DNA from: a virus
Strand: one strand, 5' to 3'
DNA length: 20,350 nucleotides
Virus record (IMG/VR): IMGVR_UViG_3300043783_000115
Coordinates: 1-20,350 of that record
Below, piece after piece: positions 428 through 19,380 of the stretch (positions are counted from its first letter, which is position 1; the number at the start of each line of letters is the position of its first letter). A program made the translations under genes and the position numbers. The notes under the pieces were generated by a model. It saw nothing but the letters and a program-made list of their open reading frames with translations. It searched no databases and was not told the origin of the DNA.

Positions 428-1513
428 ATGCCTAATACTATTTTGTCGACTAATATGTCACTTCCAGTCCCTCAGGTAGGGACAGAAACTTCCCCGCAGT
501 GGGCGTCAGATTTAAACGCCTGCATGGCTATTATTGATCAGCACAATCACGCCCCAGGCAGTGGTGTGCAGATCAATCCATCGGGTTTGCTCATTAATTC
601 AGACCTAACGTTTGGTAATAACAACCTAACAAACGTTAGGTCTGTTCGTTTTCAATCTCAACCAAGCGCTTTAGACCTTCCTACCGACTTAGGCTGTATA
701 TACGAGTCGGGTGTAGATCTTTGGTACAACGACGGTAACGGCAACCAAATAAAGATAACCGCCGGTGGGGTAGTAAACGCCACCTCTTCCGGTATTTCAA
801 GCGGGACGGCCTCTGCCTCATTTTCTTCAGGTGTCCTGGTAGTAAACGCTGCTCCAAACACACCGGCGGATATTCAAGTTGCCTCTGTGCTTCTGGGTAA
901 TAATGTAGTGAACAGCAAGTACCTAACATTATCTCCTCCTCCTTCAATGGCGGCTAATTTCACCATAACCTTACCTACGTTGCCGGCCTCAACTAGCTTA
1001 CTTACGATTGATAATAGCGGAAACGTAGCTGCCACCACCAGTCCGCAAAGTCTTGTACTTCCTGGCTTTATAAGTATGTATGGCGGCTCTAGTGCGCCTG
1101 TGGGTTATCTACTTTGCGACGGCACCAGTTATTTGCAAGCTACCTACCCAAATCTATTTGCAGCCATCGGCACTGCGTATGGCTCTGTTGACGGAACACA
1201 CTTCAATGTCCCCGACTTAAGGGGCTTATTCCCCCGTGGTGTATCTGGAATCTCCGGCAATGATCCAGACGCCTCTAGTCGTACTGCACAAAACACGGGG
1301 GGCAACGCGGGCAATAACGTAGGTTCTGTGCAAGCAGACGCTTTTGCATCACATAACCATCTCAGTAATAATACCCAGGAAGCCGGTAACATTGGAAGCG
1401 TGTTTGGCGGCGGCAACGGTGTTTCTACCGGAAGTAATGCGGCCACCACTAGTACCGGCGGTGATGAGACTAGACCTAAGAACGTGTATGTAACCTTCGT
1501 TATCAAGGTTTAA
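428..1513 (+). CDS. Tail fibre protein with phage tail-collar domain
   Basis: This 361-residue fibre protein probably acts at the baseplate or tail tip in adsorption. Residues 40-75 show the repetitive NSDLTFGNNNLTNVRSV type common in phage fibres. A beta-rich shaft with LTLSPPPSMAANFTITLP follows. From about residue 211 there is a clear tail-collar domain (Pfam Phage Tail Collar family): LPGFISMYGGSSAPVGYLLCDG, then YPNLFAAIGTAYG and FNVPDLRGLFPRGV. The end is Gly/Asn-rich and closes with the usual GGDETRPKNVYVTFVIKV type. The start has no evident Shine-Dalgarno and lies 1 base after the previous stop (TAATATG), suggesting translational coupling. A perfect 15-bp inverted repeat lies inside codons 58-73. 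The domain assignment is firm; the exact place on the virion is inferred. Confidence 0.92.
   Translation: MPNTILSTNMSLPVPQVGTETSPQWASDLNACMAIIDQHNHAPGSGVQINPSGLLINSDLTFGNNNLTNVRSVRFQSQPSALDLPTDLGCIYESGVDLWYNDGNGNQIKITAGGVVNATSSGISSGTASASFSSGVLVVNAAPNTPADIQVASVLLGNNVVNSKYLTLSPPPSMAANFTITLPTLPASTSLLTIDNSGNVAATTSPQSLVLPGFISMYGGSSAPVGYLLCDGTSYLQATYPNLFAAIGTAYGSVDGTHFNVPDLRGLFPRGVSGISGNDPDASSRTAQNTGGNAGNNVGSVQADAFASHNHLSNNTQEAGNIGSVFGGGNGVSTGSNAATTSTGGDETRPKNVYVTFVIKV
600..644. repeat. Perfect 15-bp inverted repeat inside the collar-fibre gene
   Basis: The arms 600-614 and 630-644 are exact reverse complements (left arm cagacctaacgtttg), separated by a 15-base loop. The transcript would form a strong hairpin. 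It is followed on the + strand by TTCGTTTTC, a moderately T-rich stretch like a weak intrinsic terminator. Its role is unknown; it may be an attenuator, a processing site or a recombination site. Confidence 0.8.
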
Positions 1514-5250: not shown

Positions 5251-6627
5251 ATGTTTGGTCTTGGCGGGGGAGCATCTGGCACCGGTATTTCCGGTCCTCA
5301 AGGTACTAACTTAATCAACACAACGAACGCGGGGCAAGTAAACCAAGCATATAACGGCGCCCAAAACGCCCTCGGTCAACAGCAAAGCCTACTCGCCGCT
5401 CTCCAAGCTCAAAATGGGCTAGGAAACCAATCGAATGTTTATGGACAGCTACAGGGCATCGCTGCGGGCACTGGGCCCAATCCCGCGCAAACCATGCTCA
5501 ACCAAGCTACTGGCCAAAACGTGGCTAATACAGCGGCGCTACAAGCAGGTCAGCGCGGTGCCTCTCAGAATGTAGGCCTAATCGCGCGCCAAGCAGGACA
5601 ACAGGGAGCGGCTACACAGCAACAAGCGGTAGGACAAGCCGCTACAATGCAAGCCAATCAGTCACTAAACGCTATTGGGCAGGCTGGTAGTATTGCTAAT
5701 ACACAAGCTGCTAATCAGATTGGATCAACACAAGCTCTTAACGCAGCCGCTCAAGGTGAGCAAGCCAATATTTTAGGTGCAGGAAGTAATCTTAATAGCG
5801 CTAACGTTGGCATGCAGGCCAACATGAATAGTGTTAATGGACAGCTAGCAAATACGGGCATGCAGGGGCAACAGAACCTTATAGGCGGAGCTATCGGTGG
5901 TGTTGGCACCGCCCTTGGGCTAGCTAAGGGCGGTGTTGTTAGAATGGCCGATGGTGGTTCCCCTTCTTTAGGTGCGAACACCCAACTGCCTGTTCCCACG
6001 CTTGCGCCTCTTCAAGGCGCAACAGCTTCTACCACTAATCCCAGCGGCCCTAAAAGTGCAGCGGGTCAACACCTATCGAGTCTAAGTTCTACCCCTGCAC
6101 AAGGTATGTCAGGGGCCGGTAACACTCTAGGCAACGGCATTGGAAAAGCTATTGGAAGTTTATTTAGTTCAGGTAAATCAGCACCGGGGTCTGACAACAC
6201 GGCTAGCCCCACTGCAACCACAGCCGACTGGGCAGCATACGCCGGAGCGCCTGGAACTTCTGAGGAAGACCAAGAGGCGTCTATGAATCAAACCGGCGGC
6301 AGTAATAACTTTGCCAAAGGGGGCAAAGTTCCAGCCCTCGTCTCCCCTGGTGAAAAAGTAATTCCAAAACATGAAGTTGCTAAAGTAGCTCAAGGCAAGA
6401 AAGATGCCATGGAAGCCGGCAAGACCGTCCCCGGTAAAGCCCGGGTCAAAGGGGCGAAGAACACAGAAGTCAACGATACAGTTCCTGCAACGCTTAACGA
6501 AGGTGACATTGTCCTCCCCCGCAGCGTCACTCAGTCTAAGAACCCACACTGGGCGGCGCACTCGTTCGTAAGCGCGATTATGAAACGCAAAGGACTACCA
6601 ACGCGTAAGGCTAAGGAAGTCGCCTAA
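5251..6627 (+). CDS. Gln/Ala/Asn-rich internal virion protein with SPGE motif
   Basis: This 458-residue protein has two halves. Residues 1-230 are rich in Gln, Ala, Asn and Gly, with many NA/QA repeats typical of long helical phage internal proteins (for example QQSLLAALQAQNGLGNQ, QAGQRGASQNVGLIARQAG). A short glycine-rich hydrophobic segment (GGAIGGVGTALGLAKGG) lies near residues 210-228, followed by RMADGG. After a Ser/Pro/Thr-rich linker comes a basic C-terminal module: VPALVSPGEKVIPK (360-373) echoed by VPATLNEGDIVLPR (411-424), then NPHWAAHSFVSAIM. From memory, this VPALVSPGE...VLPRSV arrangement recurs in environmental podophage proteins of unknown function. It occupies the place of T7 gene 14, so an ejected internal protein is the best guess. 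The start is uncertain because the Shine-Dalgarno is too close. Confidence 0.7.
   Translation: MFGLGGGASGTGISGPQGTNLINTTNAGQVNQAYNGAQNALGQQQSLLAALQAQNGLGNQSNVYGQLQGIAAGTGPNPAQTMLNQATGQNVANTAALQAGQRGASQNVGLIARQAGQQGAATQQQAVGQAATMQANQSLNAIGQAGSIANTQAANQIGSTQALNAAAQGEQANILGAGSNLNSANVGMQANMNSVNGQLANTGMQGQQNLIGGAIGGVGTALGLAKGGVVRMADGGSPSLGANTQLPVPTLAPLQGATASTTNPSGPKSAAGQHLSSLSSTPAQGMSGAGNTLGNGIGKAIGSLFSSGKSAPGSDNTASPTATTADWAAYAGAPGTSEEDQEASMNQTGGSNNFAKGGKVPALVSPGEKVIPKHEVAKVAQGKKDAMEAGKTVPGKARVKGAKNTEVNDTVPATLNEGDIVLPRSVTQSKNPHWAAHSFVSAIMKRKGLPTRKAKEVA
5904..5938. repeat. GC-rich hairpin over the AKGG/ADGG-coding segment
   Basis: caccgccctt (5907-5916) and aagggcggtg (5926-5935) are exact reverse complements, and three further outward G-T pairs extend the stem to 5904 and 5938. 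The loop is 9 bases. It is followed by TTAG, so there is no terminator-like T run. Gly and Ala codons are complementary, so it may be a by-product of coding. Confidence 0.55.
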
Positions 6628-6629
6628 TC

Positions 6630-9005
6630 ATGAAGATGGATCTAAATAAGTTCAAGATCACTCATTCGGATGAGAACACCACTACTCTTCAACATCCTCG
6701 CGGCCACAAGATCACAATTGCGCACAATTCTCTTAATCCCGAGCATAAGGAAATGTTTAAGGCTATGAACGCAGCCCCTAAAGCTACAAAACTATGCGGT
6801 GGCGGATATATGGCGGATGGCGGGGTGGCGGAAAACGATAAAAATGGCATGGAATATGATCCAATGAAGGATCCTGATCTTAACCCCAATGCCAAAAAGG
6901 CACCGATCGGGGATAAAAACCCCAACACCCGGCCAAGTCCTACCCCATCGGGTATAAAGATGGCAGGCGGCGGAACTCCTCCGTCTCCAACGCCTAAGGA
7001 CGATGTTCCGGCACCAATTCCCACAAATGCCGCTCCTTTTGTTAAGGGCTTTGAATCTGGCGCAACGCCGCTAGCGGATGCTTGGAAGAACTTTAAGGCG
7101 GGATTCAGTTCCGATGAACCCCAAAAGAAGGCGGATGGCGGTGAGATGCAAGGCGGAGGAGGCGGAAATACTGGCGGCCCAGCTCCAGCTATCGCGCCTG
7201 ACCCCCTCAAACAATACTGGCCTACGCCTCAGGAAGAAGAAGCTTCAGGCTATCCTCCAGATCCAAGGCGAGCGCAGTACATAGCTGCTAAGCGCCAAGC
7301 TGCCGCATCAACCATTCAAAACCAAGCGCAAGGTGGAGAGATTAAGCAATCTAATCCTAAACTTGAACAAAGCAGGGTGCAACCGCCTATTCCAAAGCGG
7401 CACTATGCAGACGGCGGTAACGCCTCTAATATTCAAGACTCCCCAGATCAAATCGCTAGCGATGCGGCCGCCAGCGCTCCCAACAACCCGGTATCCCCAG
7501 ACAGTTCAACTCCTCAAGATTCTAGGCCTTTTGCTCAACAAATCGGAGCGCATGTAGGAAAAGCGGTAAGAGATGCGATCGCAGACACTCTAGGCGCCGC
7601 TAAAAGTATTGCAAGTCCTGTAGGCGATCTAGTAAAAGGCGGTGTTCAAGGGCTTAATGGGCAGAACACCGCGGTGCCCACTCCTGGTCTGCCGCCCTCC
7701 GCGCCGGGTCTCCCGCAAAATCCTCAATTTACGGCGGCTAATACCGTCGTTCCCACCGCACCTACCACTACCCCACCATCATCTGGTCCAAACACTGCTC
7801 AGCCTACCAGCGATGCCGCTTCAGACCCAATGCTTCAAGCCATTAATACCGAACAAGCTAATTACAAAGCCGGATTGGCTCAGCAAAAGGCCGGATTACT
7901 GAATGAAGCGGCCGCCACGGGTCAACAAGGAAAAGCAGAGGCCGCAGCACTCACTTCTACTATTGCGGGACAGCAGCAGACTGCACAAACCTACCAAGAC
8001 CATTACAGTGCACTAGAGCAAGAACGACAGAACTTCATGTCTGACATTGAGAATCAGCACATTGATCCTCAGCATTATCTGAATTCCATGGGAACTGGAT
8101 CAAAGATTGCCACGGGTATTGGCCTCATCCTTGGCGGGATGGGCGGAGGTCTTAGTCACCAAGGTAATCCGGCTTTAGATTTTCTTAACAAACAGATTGA
8201 CCGCGACATTCAGGCACAGCAGACTAATCTAGGTAAGTCAGAAAATCTTTTATCAGCTAATCTTAAGCAGTTCGGTAACTTACGCGACGCCACTGATATG
8301 ACTAGAGTCATGCAAATGGATATAGTGGGTAACCAAATGAAACAAGCCGCTGCTACTGCCATGAGTCCTCTTGCAGCGGCCAGAGCACAACAAGGTATCG
8401 GCGCTCTTCAAATGCAGTCTTCCCAGATCCTAGGCCAAATGGCCATGCGCAAAACCTTGATTCAAGGGATGACTTCACAGCAGAACATTCCTCCATCCCA
8501 AATGGTGAGGAAGATGGAATTATCCGGGCTAATGAGTCCAGAAGAAGCTAAACAAGGTATGAAAGAAGCGTCAGAAGCTTCTATGCTTAATGCTTCTAGG
8601 GATAATGCGGTGAAAGCCTTTGATAAGATAGCGGCATTACAGACTACAGGCAATTACCTGAGTAGTCCTATACAGACTAGCCAACAGATAAAGGCGCTTA
8701 AGGATCCCGTTGTGGCGGGGCTATCAAAGGAAACCGCAGGTCGGTATACTGAACAAGACTCTAAAGCGCTGGATTCTATATTCGGTAGGGTTACTAGCAA
8801 CGCTAAAACTAATGCCTTACAAAGGCAGGCTCTTCTAGACTTATATGCACAAAAGCATAATCCAGGGGCATACGCAACGCTACAGTCTAGGAACATAAAC
8901 CCCGTTACACCTCCGCCAGAGCCGCCTGCTTCCGCCGCTCAGACTCAAACACGCAATGGCATTACCTACAAGCAAGTCCCCGGGGGCTGGCAGAAGGTTA
9001 AGTAG
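6630..9005 (+). CDS. Internal virion / ejection-type protein, 791 residues
   Basis: This is a large low-complexity phage protein. The N-terminal about 55 residues form a small domain (MDLNKFKITHSDENTTTL, then HPRGHKITIAHNSL). A long disordered Pro/Ala/Gly/Asp-rich region (55-410) follows, studded with GG motifs: YMADGGVA, KMAGGGT, KKADGGEM, QAQGGEI, HYADGGN. Residues about 410-480 are coiled-coil-like (AINTEQANYKAGLAQQ, ALEQERQNF). At about 490-515 there is a glycine-rich hydrophobic segment, ATGIGLILGGMGGGL, followed by NPALDFLNKQIDRDIQAQQ and more helix. The end, NGITYKQVPGGWQKVK, is a common phage terminus. Position and size resemble T7 gene 15. The start may be ATG 6630 or ATG 6636 (MDLNKF); neither has a strong Shine-Dalgarno. 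No enzymatic motif is visible; a role in DNA ejection is inferred. Confidence 0.72.
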   Translation: MKMDLNKFKITHSDENTTTLQHPRGHKITIAHNSLNPEHKEMFKAMNAAPKATKLCGGGYMADGGVAENDKNGMEYDPMKDPDLNPNAKKAPIGDKNPNTRPSPTPSGIKMAGGGTPPSPTPKDDVPAPIPTNAAPFVKGFESGATPLADAWKNFKAGFSSDEPQKKADGGEMQGGGGGNTGGPAPAIAPDPLKQYWPTPQEEEASGYPPDPRRAQYIAAKRQAAASTIQNQAQGGEIKQSNPKLEQSRVQPPIPKRHYADGGNASNIQDSPDQIASDAAASAPNNPVSPDSSTPQDSRPFAQQIGAHVGKAVRDAIADTLGAAKSIASPVGDLVKGGVQGLNGQNTAVPTPGLPPSAPGLPQNPQFTAANTVVPTAPTTTPPSSGPNTAQPTSDAASDPMLQAINTEQANYKAGLAQQKAGLLNEAAATGQQGKAEAAALTSTIAGQQQTAQTYQDHYSALEQERQNFMSDIENQHIDPQHYLNSMGTGSKIATGIGLILGGMGGGLSHQGNPALDFLNKQIDRDIQAQQTNLGKSENLLSANLKQFGNLRDATDMTRVMQMDIVGNQMKQAAATAMSPLAAARAQQGIGALQMQSSQILGQMAMRKTLIQGMTSQQNIPPSQMVRKMELSGLMSPEEAKQGMKEASEASMLNASRDNAVKAFDKIAALQTTGNYLSSPIQTSQQIKALKDPVVAGLSKETAGRYTEQDSKALDSIFGRVTSNAKTNALQRQALLDLYAQKHNPGAYATLQSRNINPVTPPPEPPASAAQTQTRNGITYKQVPGGWQKVK
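7639..7672. repeat. 9-bp inverted repeat in the 791-residue ORF
   Basis: gcggtgttc (7639-7647) and gaacaccgc (7664-7672) are exact reverse complements with a 16-base loop. It lies in the disordered region of the protein at the last KGG motif. No T tract follows. It may be incidental. Confidence 0.45.
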
Positions 9006-9011
9006 AGTATC

Positions 9012-11813
9012 ATGGTTAATGCCCCTGATTTCATTCCAGACGCACAGTTTACTCCAGATTCGACCCCTCAAAACGGATCGGACGCCTCCTCTCCAGACTT
9101 CATTGCGGACAAAGACTTTCAGTCCGATGAAGACAAGTACGGCGGCCTTGGACAATCCGCAGCCGCATTTGCTGAGGGTGTGGGTCAGGGAGCTATCCCC
9201 GGTGCAGTAACTACCGCCGCAGAAGCGGCTTCCGGTGTTCCTAGCCAAGATATCAGGGGCAGAGAGTCGGCTCACCCATACCTAAACGCCATAGGACAAG
9301 CGACAGGGCTTGTGGGGTCAACTCTAATCCCGGGCATAGGTCAGGCAGGATTGCTTGAGCGTGCGGGCGCTGCAGCAGCCGAGGGCGTTGTATCAAAGAT
9401 AGGCTCTGCTGCAGTCAAAGGCGCCATTGAGACGGCAATCCTTGGCGGCAACGATGAACTAGCCAAAATGATTATGCAAGATCCAGGCCAAACTCAGGGT
9501 ACTGCGGCGGCCAGCATTGGCCTATCCGGTATGATTGGTCTTGTTGCAGGTCCTGCAGGTTACGGAGCAAGCCAACTATGGAAGTCTACTGTAGGTCCTA
9601 AGGCCTCTCAGTTTCTACAAGCTATAACCAATCACATGGGGGGTATCGATGGCGAAACAGCGGCCAAGGTTGCTGAGTCCCCCGCGGTGCAGGCTATTAA
9701 CAAGCTCGGCGTAGACATAGATCCAGAAGTTAAAGCGGCATTGTCTGACATACCCGAAGCCAATATGGCAGGGTCGACTCTTAATCAATCAGACGAAACC
9801 GCCTCTGGCTTGTCTTATCAGAAGTCCATGAAAGAGTTCCGTTCTAACATGAACGACTCTGTTATCGGCAGTTTAGGTAAGACACCGGAGCAGGTCGCTG
9901 CATTGCCAGATGAGCTTTCTAAATACGATTACGGCAAGCGAATTGGTAATACCCTTGCAGATGAGTATCAGAAACAAATTGATCCAATCTCCGAAGAGTT
10001 TGAGGATAAAAAAGCCAAATATGGTTCATTAGAACTTCAGCCAGATCAAAAGATTGAAGTTAGAGGCCCTAACCCCTACCAACTCCAGGGGACCTTTGAG
10101 ACTCTACCCGGTACTACCAGCAAGATTGCACAAGACATTGGCGATTTGGCGATTAAACAGGGATGGACGCAGTCTGCTGACTCTGACATCATGCGCGAAG
10201 TTAACCGAGTAATGAAAGAAGTTGGTGGTCTTAAGACTGTTAAGGATCTTGGAAGTTACATAACTCGCATTGGCGAGAACACCGCAAGCACCCTCCCCTT
10301 TGGGGCACAAACTCCTTTATCTAGAGCAGGTTCCTTGATGAAAAATGTACTTAAAGAGGCAGAGTCAAATACTGTCCTTAATGCCGTCGGGCAAAAAGAA
10401 GGAGGAGTAGCGGCAGTAGCTAAGTTTTCGGCGGCTAGAGACGCTTATAGAGCCCAGTCAGTTTTAAAAGACGCCATAGACGATAGTCTTCACGCTGGCG
10501 GCAGTACTAGCGGCTTTAGTAAATCCGTTCGTGCCATGGCGCAGACCGACGGCGAGGCTGTTCTTAACCGACTATCCGGCAAAGGTAACGCGGCATTACT
10601 GCAAACCCTTCAAGACAAATTTCCGCAAACCGCTGACCTAGTTCGCCAATGGCATATTGACAATGCACTTAATACGGCCTCCAAAGCCGCTAAGGGCGAG
10701 GACACAATATCTGCGAGTAAGCTTTTGTCCCATGTCTCCGGTATGGAACCTGAGCTTAGAAACTTCGTTTTGTCAGGAGACGCTCAAGCCAAGATTAATG
10801 CCGTCGGCACAGTGATGGATAAGATAGAGTCTATGCCTTATAACTTCAGTAACACAGCCCGAACTGCCGAACGCCTTATGGGGCACATACCGGGGTCTGC
10901 CATCGGCTCTGCGGCTATGCTCTTGGGACACGGTAGCGAACGGTTTTTAGGACTTCTGGCGGCGCCTTTAACGAAGTATTTTGGTAAAACTCTCCCAGAC
11001 GCACAGAAACTTACGATGCTTAGACTTTTGGGTTCGGGTAAGTCGGTAGAGTCTGGCGCCTTTAAATCAATGCTTAACTACATGCAAGCCGTAGTAAAAG
11101 GCGATAGCGATATAACCAAAGGTGTTAAGAACGTCTTCAAGGTCGGCGGCGCAGCGGTTGCTCAGCAAGTTTCCTCCACCAGTACTGCCTCCACAGCGGC
11201 CCTGGATAAGTCCCTTAAAAGCATGATGGTAGCTGGTAACCCTACAAACGATATGGACGGCGACCTAGGCCACTATATACCGGAGCACGCCACTGCCGTA
11301 GCGTCAGCGACCACAGCCGCGGTGCAATATGTTAATAGTCAAAGGCCGTCGGAAGCAAAGCAAAGTCCTTTAGACACTAAACCCACTCTTACATTCGCGC
11401 AAAAAGCCGCATGGCGACGTACTTTGACTATTGCAGACGAACCATTAATAGTTCTTAACAGTTTGAAAGAAGGACGACTAACACCAAAAGACGTCGTAGA
11501 TCTACGAAACACCCATCCGGGCACATATGCAGCAATATCGTCTAAATTGACTAATGAAGTCATGGACATGGCAAGTAAGGGTAAAGACGTTCCGTACAAG
11601 GTTAGACTGGGTCTTTCTATGTTCCTTGGACAGAACCTGGATAGCACGATGGCGCCCCAGTCTATTATAGCCGCTCAGCCGCAGCCCACTACGCCTCCAA
11701 TGCCCACATCAGGTACTCAAAAGCCTAAGAAAGGTACCGCAACTCTTAGCAAATTGCCGGGGCAGTACATGACCAAAAACCAAGCGCGGGAAGCGCCGAG
11801 TGAAAAAAGCTAG
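9012..11813 (+). CDS. Internal virion / ejection-type protein, 933 residues
   Basis: This is a large, mostly helical protein. The N-terminus carries two copies of PDFI(P/A)D, at residues 5-10 and 28-33, followed by SDEDKYGG. Several Ala/Gly-rich hydrophobic stretches follow (GQGAIPGAVTTAAEAASG; IGQATGLVGSTLIPGIG; ASIGLSGMIGLVAGPAG). Similar ones recur later (GSAIGSAAMLLGHGSERFLGLLAAPL). They could insert into or lie on a membrane. The C-terminal part (TIADEPLIVLNSLKEGRLTPKDV; LTNEVMDMASKGKDVPYKVRLGLSMFLGQ) is a block I recall in other uncharacterised phage proteins. Its place, after the 791-residue protein and before the fibres, is that of T7 gene 16. However, I see no lytic transglycosylase motif at its N-terminus, which T7 gp16 has. 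A channel or ejection role is inferred. The Shine-Dalgarno is weak. Confidence 0.72.
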   Translation: MVNAPDFIPDAQFTPDSTPQNGSDASSPDFIADKDFQSDEDKYGGLGQSAAAFAEGVGQGAIPGAVTTAAEAASGVPSQDIRGRESAHPYLNAIGQATGLVGSTLIPGIGQAGLLERAGAAAAEGVVSKIGSAAVKGAIETAILGGNDELAKMIMQDPGQTQGTAAASIGLSGMIGLVAGPAGYGASQLWKSTVGPKASQFLQAITNHMGGIDGETAAKVAESPAVQAINKLGVDIDPEVKAALSDIPEANMAGSTLNQSDETASGLSYQKSMKEFRSNMNDSVIGSLGKTPEQVAALPDELSKYDYGKRIGNTLADEYQKQIDPISEEFEDKKAKYGSLELQPDQKIEVRGPNPYQLQGTFETLPGTTSKIAQDIGDLAIKQGWTQSADSDIMREVNRVMKEVGGLKTVKDLGSYITRIGENTASTLPFGAQTPLSRAGSLMKNVLKEAESNTVLNAVGQKEGGVAAVAKFSAARDAYRAQSVLKDAIDDSLHAGGSTSGFSKSVRAMAQTDGEAVLNRLSGKGNAALLQTLQDKFPQTADLVRQWHIDNALNTASKAAKGEDTISASKLLSHVSGMEPELRNFVLSGDAQAKINAVGTVMDKIESMPYNFSNTARTAERLMGHIPGSAIGSAAMLLGHGSERFLGLLAAPLTKYFGKTLPDAQKLTMLRLLGSGKSVESGAFKSMLNYMQAVVKGDSDITKGVKNVFKVGGAAVAQQVSSTSTASTAALDKSLKSMMVAGNPTNDMDGDLGHYIPEHATAVASATTAAVQYVNSQRPSEAKQSPLDTKPTLTFAQKAAWRRTLTIADEPLIVLNSLKEGRLTPKDVVDLRNTHPGTYAAISSKLTNEVMDMASKGKDVPYKVRLGLSMFLGQNLDSTMAPQSIIAAQPQPTTPPMPTSGTQKPKKGTATLSKLPGQYMTKNQAREAPSEKS

Positions 11814-11870: not shown

Positions 11871-12284
11871 TTGAGAGTGTCTGGAAGAAAAAATAATCTT
11901 AGGCTATTCCAATTAGTTACAGCCGGCTCCATGACAGGAACCGGCGTTATTACATCGCCAGTAACTTGCATCCAGTGGCTTGATAATATTGGAGTTCAAT
12001 TTAATTTTTCAGGCTCTCCTGTAGGAACCTTTCAAGTACAAGTTTCTGCGGACTATTCTCAGGACGCTCAAGGAAATGTAACTAACCCCGGCAATTGGGC
12101 AGCCGTTCCCCTTACCTACCTACTAACAGGCGCCTCCACTACGGCCACCACTGTGCCCACTTCAGTTGGAAGTCCTATCTATTTAGACTTAAATCAACTT
12201 TCAGCTCCTTGGGTTCGAGTTGTGTACACCAATGCATCTGGAACCGGAACGCTTAATGCCTTTATAACCGCGAAGCAATTGTAG
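11871..12284 (+). CDS. Small beta-sandwich protein, copy 1 of fibre cassette
   Basis: This 137-residue, largely beta-strand protein has no signal peptide. Key stretches are IQWLDNIGVQFNFSGSPVGTFQVQVSADY, a Thr/Ser-rich centre, then YLDLNQLSAPWVRVVYTNASGTGTLNAFI. It is a paralogue of the 128-residue protein at 14297-14683: both share SG..PVGTF.(V/L)Q.S.D, an NW near the centre, and WVR(V/L)VYT..SG. Each sits directly in front of a long fibre, suggesting a partner or attachment protein. Such proteins occur beside fibres in environmental phages as I recall, without a defined function. The start is ambiguous: TTG 11871 is 3 bases after GAGGAG, while GTG 11877 has a better 9-base spacing. The paralogue's N-terminus (MRQS versus MRVS) favours TTG. 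Confidence 0.75.
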   Translation: MRVSGRKNNLRLFQLVTAGSMTGTGVITSPVTCIQWLDNIGVQFNFSGSPVGTFQVQVSADYSQDAQGNVTNPGNWAAVPLTYLLTGASTTATTVPTSVGSPIYLDLNQLSAPWVRVVYTNASGTGTLNAFITAKQL

Positions 12285-12286
12285 TC

Positions 12287-14284
12287 ATGTCACTTTACGC
12301 AAGCAACAGAAATAATAGTGGCGGTGGTGTTCCGATATACCCCACTCTTGCTGACTTTCCCGCAACTGCACCTAAAGGCTCTCTAGCGGTTGCCGCCGAC
12401 TCCGGTATATTATATGAATTTAATGGGACTACCTGGGTAGCAATTGGCGGTCCCGGTTCTGTTCTGTCCGTAGGCCCCATAGATAGCGTACCGCCCTCTT
12501 CAAACGGCGCTGTAATATCTGCTGATGTTCTCATCATGCAAAGCGCCAGCGCGTCGGACCCCGGCCTGGTGAATCTCACTACACAGACCTTTGCGGGGCA
12601 AAAGACTTTCAGCACCGGGTTGACAGGTACACTAACTGGACACGCCTCTCTTGATGTCCCTTTGACTGAAGTAGGCGCCGCAAACGGTGTTGCGTCTTTG
12701 GATGGGTCTGGCAAAGTTCCTGCCTCCCAACTTCCCTCCACTGTACTAGAATACCAAGGGCTTTGGAATCCTACTACTAATACTCCCACTCTACAAGATA
12801 GTACTGGAACTAACGGGTTCGTATACCAAGTTAGTGCTGCGTTTGCAGGCCCTATTGCAGGCCTTTCTAACGCTACGATGGTTAATTTTCAAGTAGGTAA
12901 CCTAATTATATACGCAGGATCTATTAGCCAGTGGGAGCAAGCAGCGTCGCTTTCCGGTGTTACATCCGTCAACGGCTCCGTTGGAGCAGTGACAGTAAAC
13001 GCTATTAACCAATTGACCGGGGATATTACTGCGGGCCCTGCGAGTGGCTCTCAATCACAAGTATCTACTCTAGTGGCTACTACCAATTCCACACTCACTA
13101 CATTATCTGCACTAAGTTTACCGTCTAGCCAGCTTACTGGGCAAGTTTCCATAGCACACGGCGGAACTGGCCAAGCAACAGCTTCGGCTGCGTTTACCGC
13201 TTTGTCCCCAATAACGACTACTGGGGACATTATTTACAGTTCAAGCGGGACCACAAACTCTAGATTAGCTATTGGATCTACCGGTAACGTCCTCACTGTA
13301 TCCGGCGGAGTTCCTACTTGGGCCGCTCCGGCTACCGGGGGTACAGTAACTTCAGTGGGTCTGACCGTTCCATCGTTCCTAAGCGTTACTCCCGCTTCAA
13401 TTACGACCTCAGGCACATTCGCGGTATCTTTATCTGGAACTGCATTACCCAACACCAGTGGTGGGACAGGGCAAGTAAATGCGTGGAACGCGCAGGGGGT
13501 TATCTATGCTTCTAACACCTCTACACTAGCTAGTACAGCGGTAGGAACTTCTGGATATACTTTCCAAAGTCAAGGGGCAGGGAGTGCCCCACATTTTGCC
13601 CAATTTGTTGCAGTGGCCAATGGCGGAACAGGCGTAGGTACGGCTGCTGCTGCTTATAATGCTTTGTCCCCCATGACCACTACGGGAGACATAGAGTACG
13701 AGTCTGGAACAAACACGGCATCCAGGCTTGCAATAGGAACTACAGGACAGGTTCTGACAGTATCTGGGGGAATACCCGTTTGGGCGGCGAGTGGAAGCGC
13801 CACTACCGCTAATAGCTACTCAGGTTATCACAATAATAACGCTGCGTGGTCACAAACTGCAACGTCGTATGGGGCTATGACCTCAACCGGCGCCACTCCT
13901 ACGCTTACTAAAACCTTTGGATCGGGCATTACCGTAACTACAGCTGGCAGCAACGCCCCTGGCATTACGTTTACTCCTACGACAACCACAGCGACTTACT
14001 TAATTTCAGCAAAGATATTTGCTCAGACTTCTGCGTCAAGTGTCGTAGGTAACTATAGACTAACTGATGGAACTAATATAGTTGACTATGCCCAGATATA
14101 TTCAGGAAGCGCGGGAGCATTAGACTGTGTAACTTTAACCGGGGTATACACGCCCGGAGTCACTAGCGCGGTGAGCTTAACAGTAGCGGCAGCGGTGTCT
14201 GGCACTACCGGAACGTGTTTTATAGAGCCCTCCGGGACGCTAACGCCTTCTATTACATGGACTATTGTCCAAATTGCCGTTTAA
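12287..14284 (+). CDS. Long tail fibre with GGTG repeats and C1q-like tip
   Basis: This is a 665-residue trimeric-fibre-type protein. The N-terminal 70 residues (YPTLADFPATAPKGSLAVA, LYEFNGTTWVAIGGPG) are a small adapter-like unit. The shaft follows, with FAGQKTFSTG, VASLDGSGKVPASQLPS and SVNGSVGAVTVNAINQLTGD, motifs common in phage fibres. It then carries two copies of a roughly 60-residue GGTG module (residues about 287-347 and 441-500). Each runs from GGTG through AL(S)PxTTxGD and RLAIGxTG to VLTVSGGxPxWA. The C-terminal 130 residues (ITFTPTTTTATYLISAKIF, then TLTPSITWTIVQIAV) look like a C1q/TNF-type jelly roll, a usual receptor-binding tip. There is no clear Shine-Dalgarno; the start lies 2 bases after the previous stop. 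A receptor-binding role is well supported; the receptor is unknown. Confidence 0.88.
   Translation: MSLYASNRNNSGGGVPIYPTLADFPATAPKGSLAVAADSGILYEFNGTTWVAIGGPGSVLSVGPIDSVPPSSNGAVISADVLIMQSASASDPGLVNLTTQTFAGQKTFSTGLTGTLTGHASLDVPLTEVGAANGVASLDGSGKVPASQLPSTVLEYQGLWNPTTNTPTLQDSTGTNGFVYQVSAAFAGPIAGLSNATMVNFQVGNLIIYAGSISQWEQAASLSGVTSVNGSVGAVTVNAINQLTGDITAGPASGSQSQVSTLVATTNSTLTTLSALSLPSSQLTGQVSIAHGGTGQATASAAFTALSPITTTGDIIYSSSGTTNSRLAIGSTGNVLTVSGGVPTWAAPATGGTVTSVGLTVPSFLSVTPASITTSGTFAVSLSGTALPNTSGGTGQVNAWNAQGVIYASNTSTLASTAVGTSGYTFQSQGAGSAPHFAQFVAVANGGTGVGTAAAAYNALSPMTTTGDIEYESGTNTASRLAIGTTGQVLTVSGGIPVWAASGSATTANSYSGYHNNNAAWSQTATSYGAMTSTGATPTLTKTFGSGITVTTAGSNAPGITFTPTTTTATYLISAKIFAQTSASSVVGNYRLTDGTNIVDYAQIYSGSAGALDCVTLTGVYTPGVTSAVSLTVAAAVSGTTGTCFIEPSGTLTPSITWTIVQIAV
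13145..13330 (+). repeat. Fibre GGTG module, copy A
   Basis: The encoded unit starts VSIAHGGTGQ, passes ALSPITTTGDIIY and RLAIGSTGNVLTV, and ends PTWAAP. It is similar to copies B and C at the protein level but diverged at the DNA level. It is followed by GGTVTSVGL, which also recurs at 14829-14858 and (as GGTVTSVSV) near 15270. Confidence 0.8.
13607..13789 (+). repeat. Fibre GGTG module, copy B
   Basis: This is the second module in the same fibre: VAVANGGTGVGT, ALSPMTTTGDIEY, RLAIGTTGQVLTV, PVWAA. It joins directly to the C-terminal tip domain. Confidence 0.8.
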
Positions 14285-14296
14285 AGGATTGAAATT

Positions 14297-14683
14297 ATGA
14301 GACAGAGTAGTATAGCGTTAAAGATTGGTGGAGTTTCGATGGTAGGAACTAGTATGACAACTAGTTTTATCTCAGACCCACAAAACTTAGTTAGTATCTA
14401 CGCCTATTCTATCCAAGTAGTTTGGTCTGGGGGCGCGGCACCGGTTGGAACTTTCAGTTTGCAAGGTAGCGATGATCCAGGAGATATCGGTAGCGGACAG
14501 GCAGTATCGCTTCCAGTGAACTGGACTAACATCACTAGCTCCCCCCAAGCCATAAGTGGAACCCCAGGAAGCATCTTATACGATGTCGTGGAGTGCTCTT
14601 ACCGCTGGGTTCGCCTAGTGTACACGGCTGTTTCAGGCTCGGCTACTGTCACTGCAGCTACTATTAATGTAAAGGGAGTGTAA
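14297..14683 (+). CDS. Small beta-sandwich protein, copy 2 of fibre cassette
   Basis: This 128-residue beta-rich protein is paralogous to the one at 11871-12284. Shared landmarks are VWSGGAAPVGTFSLQGSDD, then NWTNI, and YRWVRLVYTAVSGSATVTAA. The N-terminal half (SIALKIGGVSMVGTSMTT) differs more. AAGGA at 14284-14288 lies 8 bases before the ATG. The gene starts 12 bases after the first fibre and ends 1 base before the second. It is inferred to pair with the second fibre as its paralogue pairs with the first, perhaps as a fibre-anchoring or capping subunit. A decoration protein is an alternative. No enzymatic motif is visible. Confidence 0.78.
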   Translation: MRQSSIALKIGGVSMVGTSMTTSFISDPQNLVSIYAYSIQVVWSGGAAPVGTFSLQGSDDPGDIGSGQAVSLPVNWTNITSSPQAISGTPGSILYDVVECSYRWVRLVYTAVSGSATVTAATINVKGV

Positions 14684-14684
14684 T

Positions 14685-16619
14685 ATGCAGTATTATGTAA
14701 AATTACCCCCTAGCGGAGGAGGAGGGGTTACAAGCGTCAACGGCGCTACGGGCGCCGTTGACATCCTAGCAGGTACAGGTATTACTGTAACCACAGTTGG
14801 CGACAATATTACTATAGCGACTGCTGCTGGCGGAGGAACTGTAACTTCTGTAGGGCTGGCGGACACAAGCACTACACCCATCTACACAGTATCGGGCTCT
14901 CCGGTCACTACATCGGGAACGTTAGACATCACCCTAAATACGCAGTTAGCGAACACGGTGTTTGCTGGTCCTACTTCAGGTGGGGCTAGTCAGCCTGCGT
15001 TTAGGGCTATTGTTCCTGCAGATGTTCCCACTCTAAATCAGAACACCACAGGAACCGCCTCTAACGTTACCGGCGTGGTCGCCATAGTTAACGGAGGTAC
15101 TGGTCAGACTACCGCAAATGCCGGATTTGACGCCTTATCGCCAATGACTACTGCAGGCGATTTGGTTTATGAAAATGCCACGCCAACAGCAGCTAGGTTG
15201 CCTATAGGTAGTACAGGTCAAGTTCTTACTGTCGTGGCAGGTGAACCAGCCTGGGCAGCGCCCGCAACGGGCGGAACTGTAACTTCTGTTTCTGTAGTAT
15301 CCGCAAACGGTTTAGCCGGAACTGTCGCTAATCCGACTACTACTCCGGCTATCACACTTAGTACCACAGTCACCGGGGTTTTGCAGGGTAACGGTACTGC
15401 TATTAGTGCTGCCTCTACTACAGGCACGGGAAGCGTTGTTCTTGCCACTAGCCCCACCTTGGTGACTCCTGCGTTAGGGACGCCCTCAGCATTGGTATTG
15501 ACCAATGCTACTGGATTACCTCTTTCAACCGGTGTAACTGGGGTATTGCCTATAGCTGATGGAGGAACTAACAACAGTTCTGCGTACACTGCGGGATCTA
15601 TTATATTCTCTAATGGAACTTCTCTAACTCAAGACAATGCAAACTTATTTTGGAATGATACTAACTTTTCTTTAGGGTTGAGTAATAATTTACCCGCTGC
15701 CAACGCGTTTATTGATGGCGTGAACAGCACTGCTGCGGCTAAAAGAATTGTCCTGACCGGCTACGGTGTTGGCTCTACTGTAGGATTTAGAGGCAGGTTT
15801 GGGCGCGGCACCTCTAGCTCTCCTTCCGCCGTTCAAGCTGGAGACACTTTTAATTTTATAAGTGGACAAGGATACGGAACTTCACAGTTTCCTGCCTCAA
15901 GTACAGGCGCTATTAATATTGTAGCTAATGAAACTTTTACAAACACATCCAACGCTACTTTTATTCAATTTCAAGTTACTCCTACCGGATCTACTACTAT
16001 AGCAGAGGCGATGCGGATCAATTCCACAGGTAATGTGTTGATTGATACTATCACAGATAATGGCTTAGACAGTCTGCAAATAGGCTCCGGTATCAGTGCG
16101 GGATATATCAAGCTAACCGGAGCTACCTCAGGAAACGTAGAGCTTATATCTCCCGCCACAGTAACCTCCTATGCTCTTACACTTCCTTCGGCCCAAGGTG
16201 CTGCAAGTTCTGTTCCAATAAATAATGGGAGTGGGACACTTTCTTTTTCTCCAAACGTAGCGGTGGGAGTTATAGGGATAACCATAGACGGCGCTGGAAG
16301 CGTACTCACCACAGGTGTCAAAGGCTACACATCTGTACCATTTGCGTGTACAATTAATAGCGTGACTTTGCTTGCAGATCAGACGGGTTCTGTGGTAGTG
16401 GACATCTGGAAGACGCCATATTCGTCTTTTCCTCCAACCGTGGCCAATACTATTACAGCGTCCGACCTTCCAACTATTTCTAGCGCTCAAAAAAATCAAG
16501 ATACTACTTTAACGGGCTGGACTACAACTGTAAATGCTAATGATACTATAGGATTCAACGTAAATAGTTGTACTTCTATAACTAGACTTAACTTGATACT
16601 AAAAGTAACTAAAATATAA
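14685..16619 (+). CDS. Long tail fibre with GGTG repeat and distinct C-terminal tip
   Basis: This 644-residue fibre opens with a short stretch (MQYYVKLPPSGGGGVTSVNG) and a SVNGATGAVDI unit, lacking the adapter-like N-terminus of the first fibre. One GGTG module lies at residues about 132-193 (VAIVNGGTGQ, ALSPMTTAGDLVY, RLPIGSTGQVLTV, PAWAAP). A shaft follows with LATSPTLVTPALGTPSALVL, GTSQFPASSTGAINIVA and EAMRINSTGNVLI, motifs frequent in phage fibres. The C-terminal about 120 residues (ITIDGAGSVLTTGVKG, then FPPTVANTITASDLPTIS, TLTGWTTTVNANDTIGFNV) form a tip type seen in other phage fibres, as I recall, and unrelated to the first fibre's C1q-like tip. GGGAG lies 6 bases before the start. 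A receptor-binding role is likely. Confidence 0.88.
   Translation: MQYYVKLPPSGGGGVTSVNGATGAVDILAGTGITVTTVGDNITIATAAGGGTVTSVGLADTSTTPIYTVSGSPVTTSGTLDITLNTQLANTVFAGPTSGGASQPAFRAIVPADVPTLNQNTTGTASNVTGVVAIVNGGTGQTTANAGFDALSPMTTAGDLVYENATPTAARLPIGSTGQVLTVVAGEPAWAAPATGGTVTSVSVVSANGLAGTVANPTTTPAITLSTTVTGVLQGNGTAISAASTTGTGSVVLATSPTLVTPALGTPSALVLTNATGLPLSTGVTGVLPIADGGTNNSSAYTAGSIIFSNGTSLTQDNANLFWNDTNFSLGLSNNLPAANAFIDGVNSTAAAKRIVLTGYGVGSTVGFRGRFGRGTSSSPSAVQAGDTFNFISGQGYGTSQFPASSTGAINIVANETFTNTSNATFIQFQVTPTGSTTIAEAMRINSTGNVLIDTITDNGLDSLQIGSGISAGYIKLTGATSGNVELISPATVTSYALTLPSAQGAASSVPINNGSGTLSFSPNVAVGVIGITIDGAGSVLTTGVKGYTSVPFACTINSVTLLADQTGSVVVDIWKTPYSSFPPTVANTITASDLPTISSAQKNQDTTLTGWTTTVNANDTIGFNVNSCTSITRLNLILKVTKI
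14736..14762. repeat. 11-bp GC-rich inverted repeat at the start of fibre 2
   Basis: gtcaacggcgc (14736-14746) and gcgccgttgac (14752-14762) are exact reverse complements around a 5-base loop. It encodes VNGATGAVD, whose codons are themselves complementary in order, so it may partly result from the protein motif. It lies about 50 bases into the gene, where it could slow initiation or early elongation. A shorter imperfect hairpin occurs at the equivalent motif near 12969 in fibre 1. Confidence 0.6.
15078..15263 (+). repeat. Fibre GGTG module, copy C
   Basis: This is the third module, in the second fibre, with the same landmarks as copies A and B. It links the two fibres as paralogous shafts despite their different tips. 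Confidence 0.8.
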
Positions 16620-18678: not shown

Positions 18679-19380
18679 ATGAAGAAAGTAATCGTATCTC
18701 TAATCGTCCTTATCGCCTTAGTTTCTTCCACATTTAGTTGTCAGACGTCAGGGGAAAAAGTCAAAGAAAGCGTTGTAAAGCTCACCAGCGCACATGAGCA
18801 GTGCTCAGGAATTCAGGTTAAAGCGCCGAGTGGGATGACATATATCCTAACTGCAGGTCATTGTAAAGGCATTGCAGATGCATCCGGTTCTATATTAGTT
18901 ATGACTGAAGATAAGAAACAGGTTCAGCGTAAGATCATAGCAGAAGATCCCGCATCTGACCTGCTGCTTCTTGAAGGCGCCCCCGGTGTTCCAGGACTCG
19001 ACGTTGCGTCTCACGATCGACGAGGGCAATTTATTAGAACCTTCACTCATGGGCATGGATTAGATACCTACGAGACAGATGGGATTTTGATTGGCGATCT
19101 ATCTATTAAAATTCCCGCAGAAGAAATTGATTTACTAGAATGTGTAAAAATGCCCAAGTATAAAAAAGAAACCATTGATATGTTTTTTGGGATTACTGCT
19201 GATATATGCGCCCTTGAGGTTACAGAAACCGTCACTAACGCTCTGATTATACCGGGGGCTAGTGGGGGCGCCGCTGTTGATTCTAGAGGACACTTGATCG
19301 GTATATGCAGCGCCACGGGCGGCGGCTTAGGCTACTTAGTGACCTTGAAGGACATCAACAAGTTCCTTAAAGGATACTAA
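18679..19380 (+). CDS. Secreted trypsin-like serine protease in the lysis cassette
   Basis: This 233-residue protein has an N-terminal signal (KK, hydrophobic 4-15) ending in STFSC21, a lipobox-like cleavage site, so it may be a lipoprotein or a periplasmic protein. The chymotrypsin-fold triad is visible: His61 in ILTAGHC, Asp94 in PASDLLLL, Ser195 in GASGG. Cys42 and Cys62 bracket the His loop as in trypsin-like enzymes. The C-terminus (GHLIGICS, GYLVTLKDINKFL) completes the second barrel. AGGA is 4 bases before the start. It lies between holin and endolysin genes, overlapping the latter by one base, so it is expressed with lysis. It could act on envelope proteins at lysis or on secreted targets. 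The substrate is unknown, and a role in lysis is inferred from position. Confidence 0.88.
   Translation: MKKVIVSLIVLIALVSSTFSCQTSGEKVKESVVKLTSAHEQCSGIQVKAPSGMTYILTAGHCKGIADASGSILVMTEDKKQVQRKIIAEDPASDLLLLEGAPGVPGLDVASHDRRGQFIRTFTHGHGLDTYETDGILIGDLSIKIPAEEIDLLECVKMPKYKKETIDMFFGITADICALEVTETVTNALIIPGASGGAAVDSRGHLIGICSATGGGLGYLVTLKDINKFLKGY

Follow-up and report, generated by a model that had tools for sequence, protein, structure and literature searches.

The dual receptor-binding proteins of phages of the SP6/K1-5 type share an adaptor. In SP6, K1E, K1-5 and Klebsiella phages, two receptor-binding proteins are each carried on their own N-terminal peptide of 7 or 11 residues, according to the part of the source available (PMC6872550). 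In the head spike of RcGTA, a pentamer of the jelly-roll protein Rcc01079 binds residues 2–10 of the fibre Rcc01080 (PMC7296036, available part). Here we describe a locus in the virus record IMGVR_UViG_3300043783_000115, a stretch of 20,350 bases referred to below as the window, in which two small proteins, A and B, are each followed by a long fibre gene. Comparison with relatives suggests that the type of N-terminal peptide encoded by the following gene is often matched to the clade of the small protein. This matching is what is new here, the plug-and-socket principle itself being already known.

The likeness to the RcGTA spike lies in a single jelly-roll base, predicted in our case, and in a fibre whose first ~10 residues are the attachment peptide, most of the body being free (PMC7296036, available part). 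The differences are as follows. The RcGTA peptide is an Ile/Leu-Gly repeat, and there is one base type, which sits on the capsid pentons, as far as the available part of the description goes (PMC7296036); the window family has two clades of putative bases, one going with aromatic-Pro peptides and the other with aliphatic-Pro ones. Short N-terminal peptide types of the SP6/K1-5 kind are seen in relatives of the window phage too. In the window, a small protein is encoded directly upstream of each fibre; the available part of PMC6872550 describes no dedicated small jelly-roll per fibre.

The four open reading frames, of 137, 665, 128 and 644 residues, lie where an earlier note on this DNA had placed them. 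With their modules, they are as follows, relatives being designated by L numbers.

11877..12284, + strand: small protein A, predicted jelly-roll; A clade, with the first copies of L002, L006, L017 and L018 (support 100/99)
12287..14284, + strand: fibre 1, 665 residues; tail protein matches (phrog_13892/31460) at residues 112–255
12287..12328, + strand: fibre 1 N-terminus, MSLYASNRNNSGGG, in the position of the anchor peptide; MSLY is kept and the family motif departed from
12317..12631, + strand: fibre 1 adapter-like domain, residues 11–115, with matches in L065, L019, L026, L032 and L025
12977..13801, + strand: fibre 1 GGTG-type shaft, residues 231–505, used in the shaft comparison
13802..14281, + strand: fibre 1 tip, residues 506–665, without match
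14297..14683, + strand: small protein B; B clade, sister to the B protein of L018 (99/88), with an hhalign match to A
14685..16619, + strand: fibre 2, 644 residues
14685..14726, + strand: fibre 2 N-terminus, MQYYVKLPPSGGGG, which fits the B-clade anchor motif and has a Gly-rich hinge
16248..16616, + strand: fibre 2 tip, residues 522–644, of the phrog_35197 type

The peptide evidence was obtained from all 54 small genes; where an HNH gene came next, it was skipped and the gene after it taken as the follower. The A motif is aromatic-x(x)-aromatic(-Pro), for example YIRYP, and the B motif is [YF][IVL]x[LM]P, for example YVKLP. Among the followers of A-clade genes, 22 of 35 begin with the strict A motif and six more with a loose form of it (28/35), and none has the B motif. 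Followers of B-clade genes show the B motif in 6 of 19 cases and the loose A motif in two. As a control, 111 other downstream open reading frames of at least 100 residues gave one strict A match, 12 loose A matches (the same rows being counted, so at most 13 in all) and two B matches; both of the latter are second fibres in clusters holding a B gene (L018 and L042). The initial motifs had been written from a side-by-side reading of follower starts in the same rows, and with these the A motif was found in 24 of 31 A-clade followers versus 44 of 303 background genes, and the B motif in 7 of 17 B-clade followers versus 3 of 303. In four contigs fetched after the initial motifs were written, the A motif occurred in 2 of 4 cases and the B motif in 1 of 2, judged by eye and with the initial motifs only; the strict A and final B motifs were fixed after sight of these four contigs.

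Where clade and gene position disagree, the peptide type follows the clade (four of four cases). In L017, L028 and L029, an A gene in a later position has a follower with the A motif; in L042, a B gene that comes first has a follower with the B motif. An additional start, FNPFTGNFD-like (MALSFNFNPFTGNFD and similar), recurs on the second gene after A in the fibre regions of L007, L010, L015, L022 and L029. Genes that resemble HNH endonucleases by eye lie between small gene and follower at L010:10061-10555 and 14007-14519 and at L029:11930-12400, and the peptide start is retained behind them.

A conserved 5′ end could also be a DNA-level homology arm for the swapping of fibres, with no docking role. 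The fibre bodies do differ behind the peptide, as such an arm would have it. However, the start MSLYIRY is identical in L002, L006 and L017, and four of its seven codons differ synonymously in each pair of these phages. One anchor peptide is thus conserved at the protein rather than the DNA level, and this silent divergence led us to reject a recombination arm as the sole cause of peptide conservation; we hold the arm to be a very improbable explanation. A clade-matched peptide on the following gene fits a base-and-fibre pair.

We propose, with moderate confidence and by analogy, that the small proteins are anciently diverged A and B bases, or sockets, for the N-terminal peptides of fibres. 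The mechanism is suggested because these data can be set beside the RcGTA base and its peptide and beside the phages with 7- and 11-residue peptides. The small jelly-roll protein would be a base on the virion, and the N-terminal ~12 residues of the fibre, often with a Gly-rich hinge behind them, would plug into it. A-clade bases would take aromatic-x(x)-aromatic(-Pro) peptides, and some of the B-clade bases would take [YF][IVL]x[LM]P peptides. Behind the peptide, the adapter, shaft and tip modules would be exchanged freely. The window phage would then have two related sockets, each bearing a different fibre, and might have two receptor specificities. Two specificities, offered by the earlier note, are possible; the branched fibre that it offered as the alternative found no support.

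As to a docking peptide of the RcGTA type, the motifs are enriched in followers, and in the window fibre 2 matches and fibre 1 does not. Several observations weigh against the socket proposal. Fibre 1 of the window begins MSLYASN and fails the A motif, as do the A followers of L018 and L032, and only 6 of 19 B followers match the B motif. The motifs were derived from the data, and gene linkage alone could hold a peptide and a small gene together. L003 and L033 have A directly followed by B, so that A lacks a fibre of its own. In L054 and L064, the gene after A resembles that of a small membrane protein and no fibre follows, and these contigs, read whole, contain no open reading frame of at least 100 residues with an A-type start. 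L006 has a natural in-frame read-through of A into its fibre start, and in the AlphaFold2 model of this chain, a monomer only, the peptide is undocked, with a predicted local distance difference test score (pLDDT) of about 50–57, which tells neither for nor against docking.

A stricter form of the socket proposal, in which a base of either clade admits fibres with the matching peptide and no others, is unlikely in our judgment. If true, such a two-key code would let fibres be gained, lost and doubled, as with the second fibres of L018 and L042 that carry the B peptide, without confusion of sockets. More generally, a peptide that specifies its socket would make fibres and their partners predictable from metagenomes, and would account for the way in which uncultured phages carry more than one fibre for adsorption.

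How constant is the pairing? The 933-residue protein encoded upstream of A was used as a synteny marker because searches with the small proteins alone found few relatives, and an iterated profile was then used to find the small protein beside it. When the contigs were searched over their whole length, at least one copy was found in 34 of 34, a figure that is partly by construction since some contigs were found via the small protein, and many are fragments. Eighteen contigs have two copies, two have three, and 14 have one (that of L043 weak, E 1e-4). Behind the 35 A-clade genes comes a fibre gene or another gene of the fibre region in 31 cases, a B gene in two (L003, L033) and no fibre in two (L054, L064). 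One of the 19 B-clade genes has another B gene next. In L007, A is followed by a 221-residue protein and B by a 116-residue protein, neither of them a long fibre.

It follows that the pairing is common but not constant, whereas the earlier note had called it constant; the case that the note had named as contrary to its view, a small protein to which no fibre is linked, occurs in two of the 34 contigs, L054 and L064. We therefore rejected the idea of an obligatory fibre partner. What stands of the suggested dedicated partnership is that the usual follower is a fibre-region gene with a tendency to a clade-matched peptide. Since L054 and L064 still have A but no anchored fibre, the protein may have a structural use of its own. 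The contigs of these two loci also encode Gly-rich (20–23%) proteins of about 540–574 residues between terminase-like and portal-like genes, without the A peptide (L078:2427-4049 and 5617-7341; L079:3805-8726, with three in a row in L079).

The beta-sandwich that the earlier note saw in the small proteins is borne out for A by an AlphaFold2 prediction from 10 sequences (mean pLDDT 83), and the small family is predicted to have a single jelly-roll fold. The model of A thus has the predicted form of an RcGTA-type base, a single jelly-roll of about 110–140 residues. The best VIA matches of this model are YomS and the C-terminal domain of XepA, with Z 13.1 and a root-mean-square deviation of 2.5 over 110–112 residues (110 for YomS). 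XepA and YomS of B. subtilis prophages are pentameric discs (PMC6834076, available part). They differ from the window proteins in having about 10% identity to them and in belonging to lytic cassettes, with no fibre partner named in the available part of the source (PMC6834076). Further fold matches include a Klebsiella phage baseplate protein (9f4b, Z 10.2), the Milano neck/portal vertex (8fwg, 9.6), phage 7-7-1 (9hz8, 9.1), the BPP-1 cement protein (3j4u_H, 8.9), the Carin1 capsid (8cjz, 8.1) and the KHP40 cement protein (7dou, 7.5). Unrelated beta-sandwiches commonly reach Z 8–10, so that YomS and XepA alone are distinctive. A second model, of the L006 read-through chain built from 31 rows, again has YomS first (Z 10.6), with the BPP-1 cement protein at 8.6; in Foldseek's own order for this model, non-phage proteins are on top. 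The RcGTA base was not among the best 50 matches of any fold list, which is uninformative about its fold.

The matches from 7-7-1 and Milano to the cement and capsid proteins fit another explanation, in which the small proteins decorate the capsid as cement jelly-rolls, gene order accounts for their being next to fibres, and the peptides dock elsewhere, for example, on the tail. The Bbp16 protein of BPP-1 (PF21190, 3j4u) is a jelly-roll of similar size with the fold likeness just given and a weak likeness in sequence. The Pfam profile matches 4 of 46 members of the small family at E ≤ 0.1, with a best E of 4.8e-4 and no match to window A, and hhalign of the small family against Bbp16 gives a weak result (probability 19.7%, E 0.0012). 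The retention of A in L054 and L064, where no fibre is linked to it, also agrees with a cement role. However, the Bbp16 gene has bbp17, the gene of the major head protein, as its neighbour, whereas in the window and relatives the small genes lie between a large upstream protein and the fibres. They follow large pre-fibre proteins, and beside the capsid-like gene sits another protein, of ~220 residues. A cement role also leaves the clade-specific peptides on the following gene unexplained. We regard it as a possible, if somewhat unlikely, account.

A tail location can be argued in the same manner. In this alternative, the small proteins are tail parts, and the fibre peptides bind a shared tail adaptor, as in dual spikes of the SP6/K1-5 type. 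The small genes follow presumed ejection proteins in a short-tailed gene order, a baseplate protein (9f4b) is among the fold matches, and phages of that type are known to have two receptor-binding proteins with short, conserved peptides at their N-termini (PMC6872550, available part). Against this, a separate collar fibre gene already fills a usual tail-fibre place, and a shared adaptor would leave two clade-following peptide types unexplained. We judge it decidedly unlikely. For the socket that we propose, the fold neighbours and the separate collar fibre gene for the tail favour a position on the head, and gene position favours one on the tail; it may be on either. Under the unlikely two-key form of the proposal, pentameric bases at the capsid vertices, if that is where they are, would amount to a doubled, adenovirus-like arrangement of base and fibre on tailed phages.

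Next, we consider the age of the A/B pair. The earlier note had read the two cassettes as a tandem duplication within this phage, followed by replacement of a tip. The small proteins are indeed homologous, as it had supposed, with 36% identity by BLASTP (E 1e-10), and the profile alignment that it had proposed as a check, hhalign of six A-type against four B-type proteins, gives a probability of 98.5% and E 2.1e-15. The paralogous small proteins, the related shafts and the tandem order are what speak for a recent duplication. The phylogeny speaks otherwise. The 57 small proteins were reduced to 48 by collapsing repeated-contig loci and near-copies (at least 95%), and a maximum-likelihood tree of these non-redundant domains splits 31 A rows from 17 B rows with support of 99/96; the tree is unrooted and gives the clades no order in time. 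Forcing window A and window B to be sisters was rejected in the approximately unbiased (AU) test (p-AU 0.00013). The two cassettes have no appreciable likeness in DNA, the best blastn piece between them being 38 nt at 76% (E 0.016).

The shafts tell the same story. That they are related holds (E 6e-25); a special closeness does not, since fibres of other phages match slightly or clearly better. The fibre 1 shaft scores 152 bits against the L022 fibre and 97 bits against fibre 2. The fibre 2 shaft scores from 117 to 99 bits against the fibres of L034, L022, L048, L002 and L036, and 96 bits against fibre 1. Because of the tree, the AU test and the DNA and shaft comparisons, the window pair is taken to be an old A/B pair and not a new copy. 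A recent tandem duplication was rejected on these grounds, and we consider it extremely improbable. The A/B split, as far as the tree reaches, goes back further than the point at which the sampled phages diverged. Neighbouring paralogous cassettes, then, need not be recent duplications.

In the fibres themselves, the tips differ as the earlier note said. Fibre 2 residues 522–643 match phrog_35197 (E 1.8e-34), with relatives in the Synechococcus phages S-CAM1 and S-CAM3 (32–36% identity by tblastn). The fibre 1 tip, which the earlier note took to be C1q/TNF-like, gave no match when all of fibre 1 was scanned against Pfam and PHROGs or in comparison with the fibres of relatives. The note's statement that only fibre 1 has an adapter-like N-terminus also agrees with our results, a domain of ~100 residues being present there and fibre 2 giving no match; the fibre 1 module is also found behind the N-terminal peptide in other fibres.

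The start of A requires a correction. The gene is in the place given by the earlier note, and its TTG start at 11871 is replaced by GTG at 11877, which is likelier because AGGAG lies 9 nt upstream and the relatives begin MSGRKN. Scans of PHROGs, Pfam and NCBIfam with the small proteins gave nothing firm and no family name of their own. PDB profile searches with the small family gave no match, and no RcGTA chain was listed at E ≤ 1. Among 15 BPP-1 proteins, neither the profile of the small family nor that of the 933-residue upstream protein had a match. A scan of genome contigs for relatives of the small proteins gave none, and a scan of viral contigs gave none with window B alone and only two already known contigs with A1. 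Four small proteins (window A, window B, L003 B and L007 B) had no match in 50,697 phage records, and so the known relatives are all uncultured IMG/VR contigs. In open-licence literature on this arrangement, the RcGTA and Klebsiella peptides turned up, and nothing was found on the small family itself. Describing the family makes a recurrent unnamed gene readable.

Among the B-clade proteins, that of L015 (L015:9001-10482) has 493 residues, of which ~370, with repeated segments, are seemingly inserted before the last beta-hairpin; an insertion is inferred because the C-terminal end again resembles the end of a B protein. This suggests that the loop in question is exposed and able to carry domains. 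Many small genes have a purine-rich AAGG or similar sequence in their last codons, for example, at window 14663-14685, and the stop of the small gene and the next start often overlap or nearly touch. The ribosome site of the fibre may thus lie inside the small gene.

Two neighbouring genes of the window were referred to above.

428..1513, + strand: tail collar fibre (phrog_523, E 7.9e-23), the more obvious tail-fibre gene of the phage
9012..11813, + strand: conserved 933-residue protein, directly upstream of small protein A, without Pfam or PHROGs match

The gene order is collar fibre, a 1113-residue protein, an acetyltransferase, three large proteins (to 11813), small protein A, fibre 1, small protein B and fibre 2. 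The collar fibre gene is directly 5′ of a gene taken, by position, as a nozzle/internal protein, and the 1113-residue protein has a partial internal-virion match (phrog_511). The 933-residue protein is a probable ejection or internal virion protein, by its position only. In relatives, the same order follows terminase-, portal-, capsid- and nozzle-like genes, named by position and look rather than by database match. Because of this gene order, the window phage, which is uncultured, is probably short-tailed (podovirus-like). Downstream of fibre 2 are holin, protease and endolysin genes. The protease-like protein (18679-19380; phrog_9683, E 2.3e-9) is encoded between the holin and endolysin genes, and counterparts, judged by eye, lie downstream in L015, L017 and L048.

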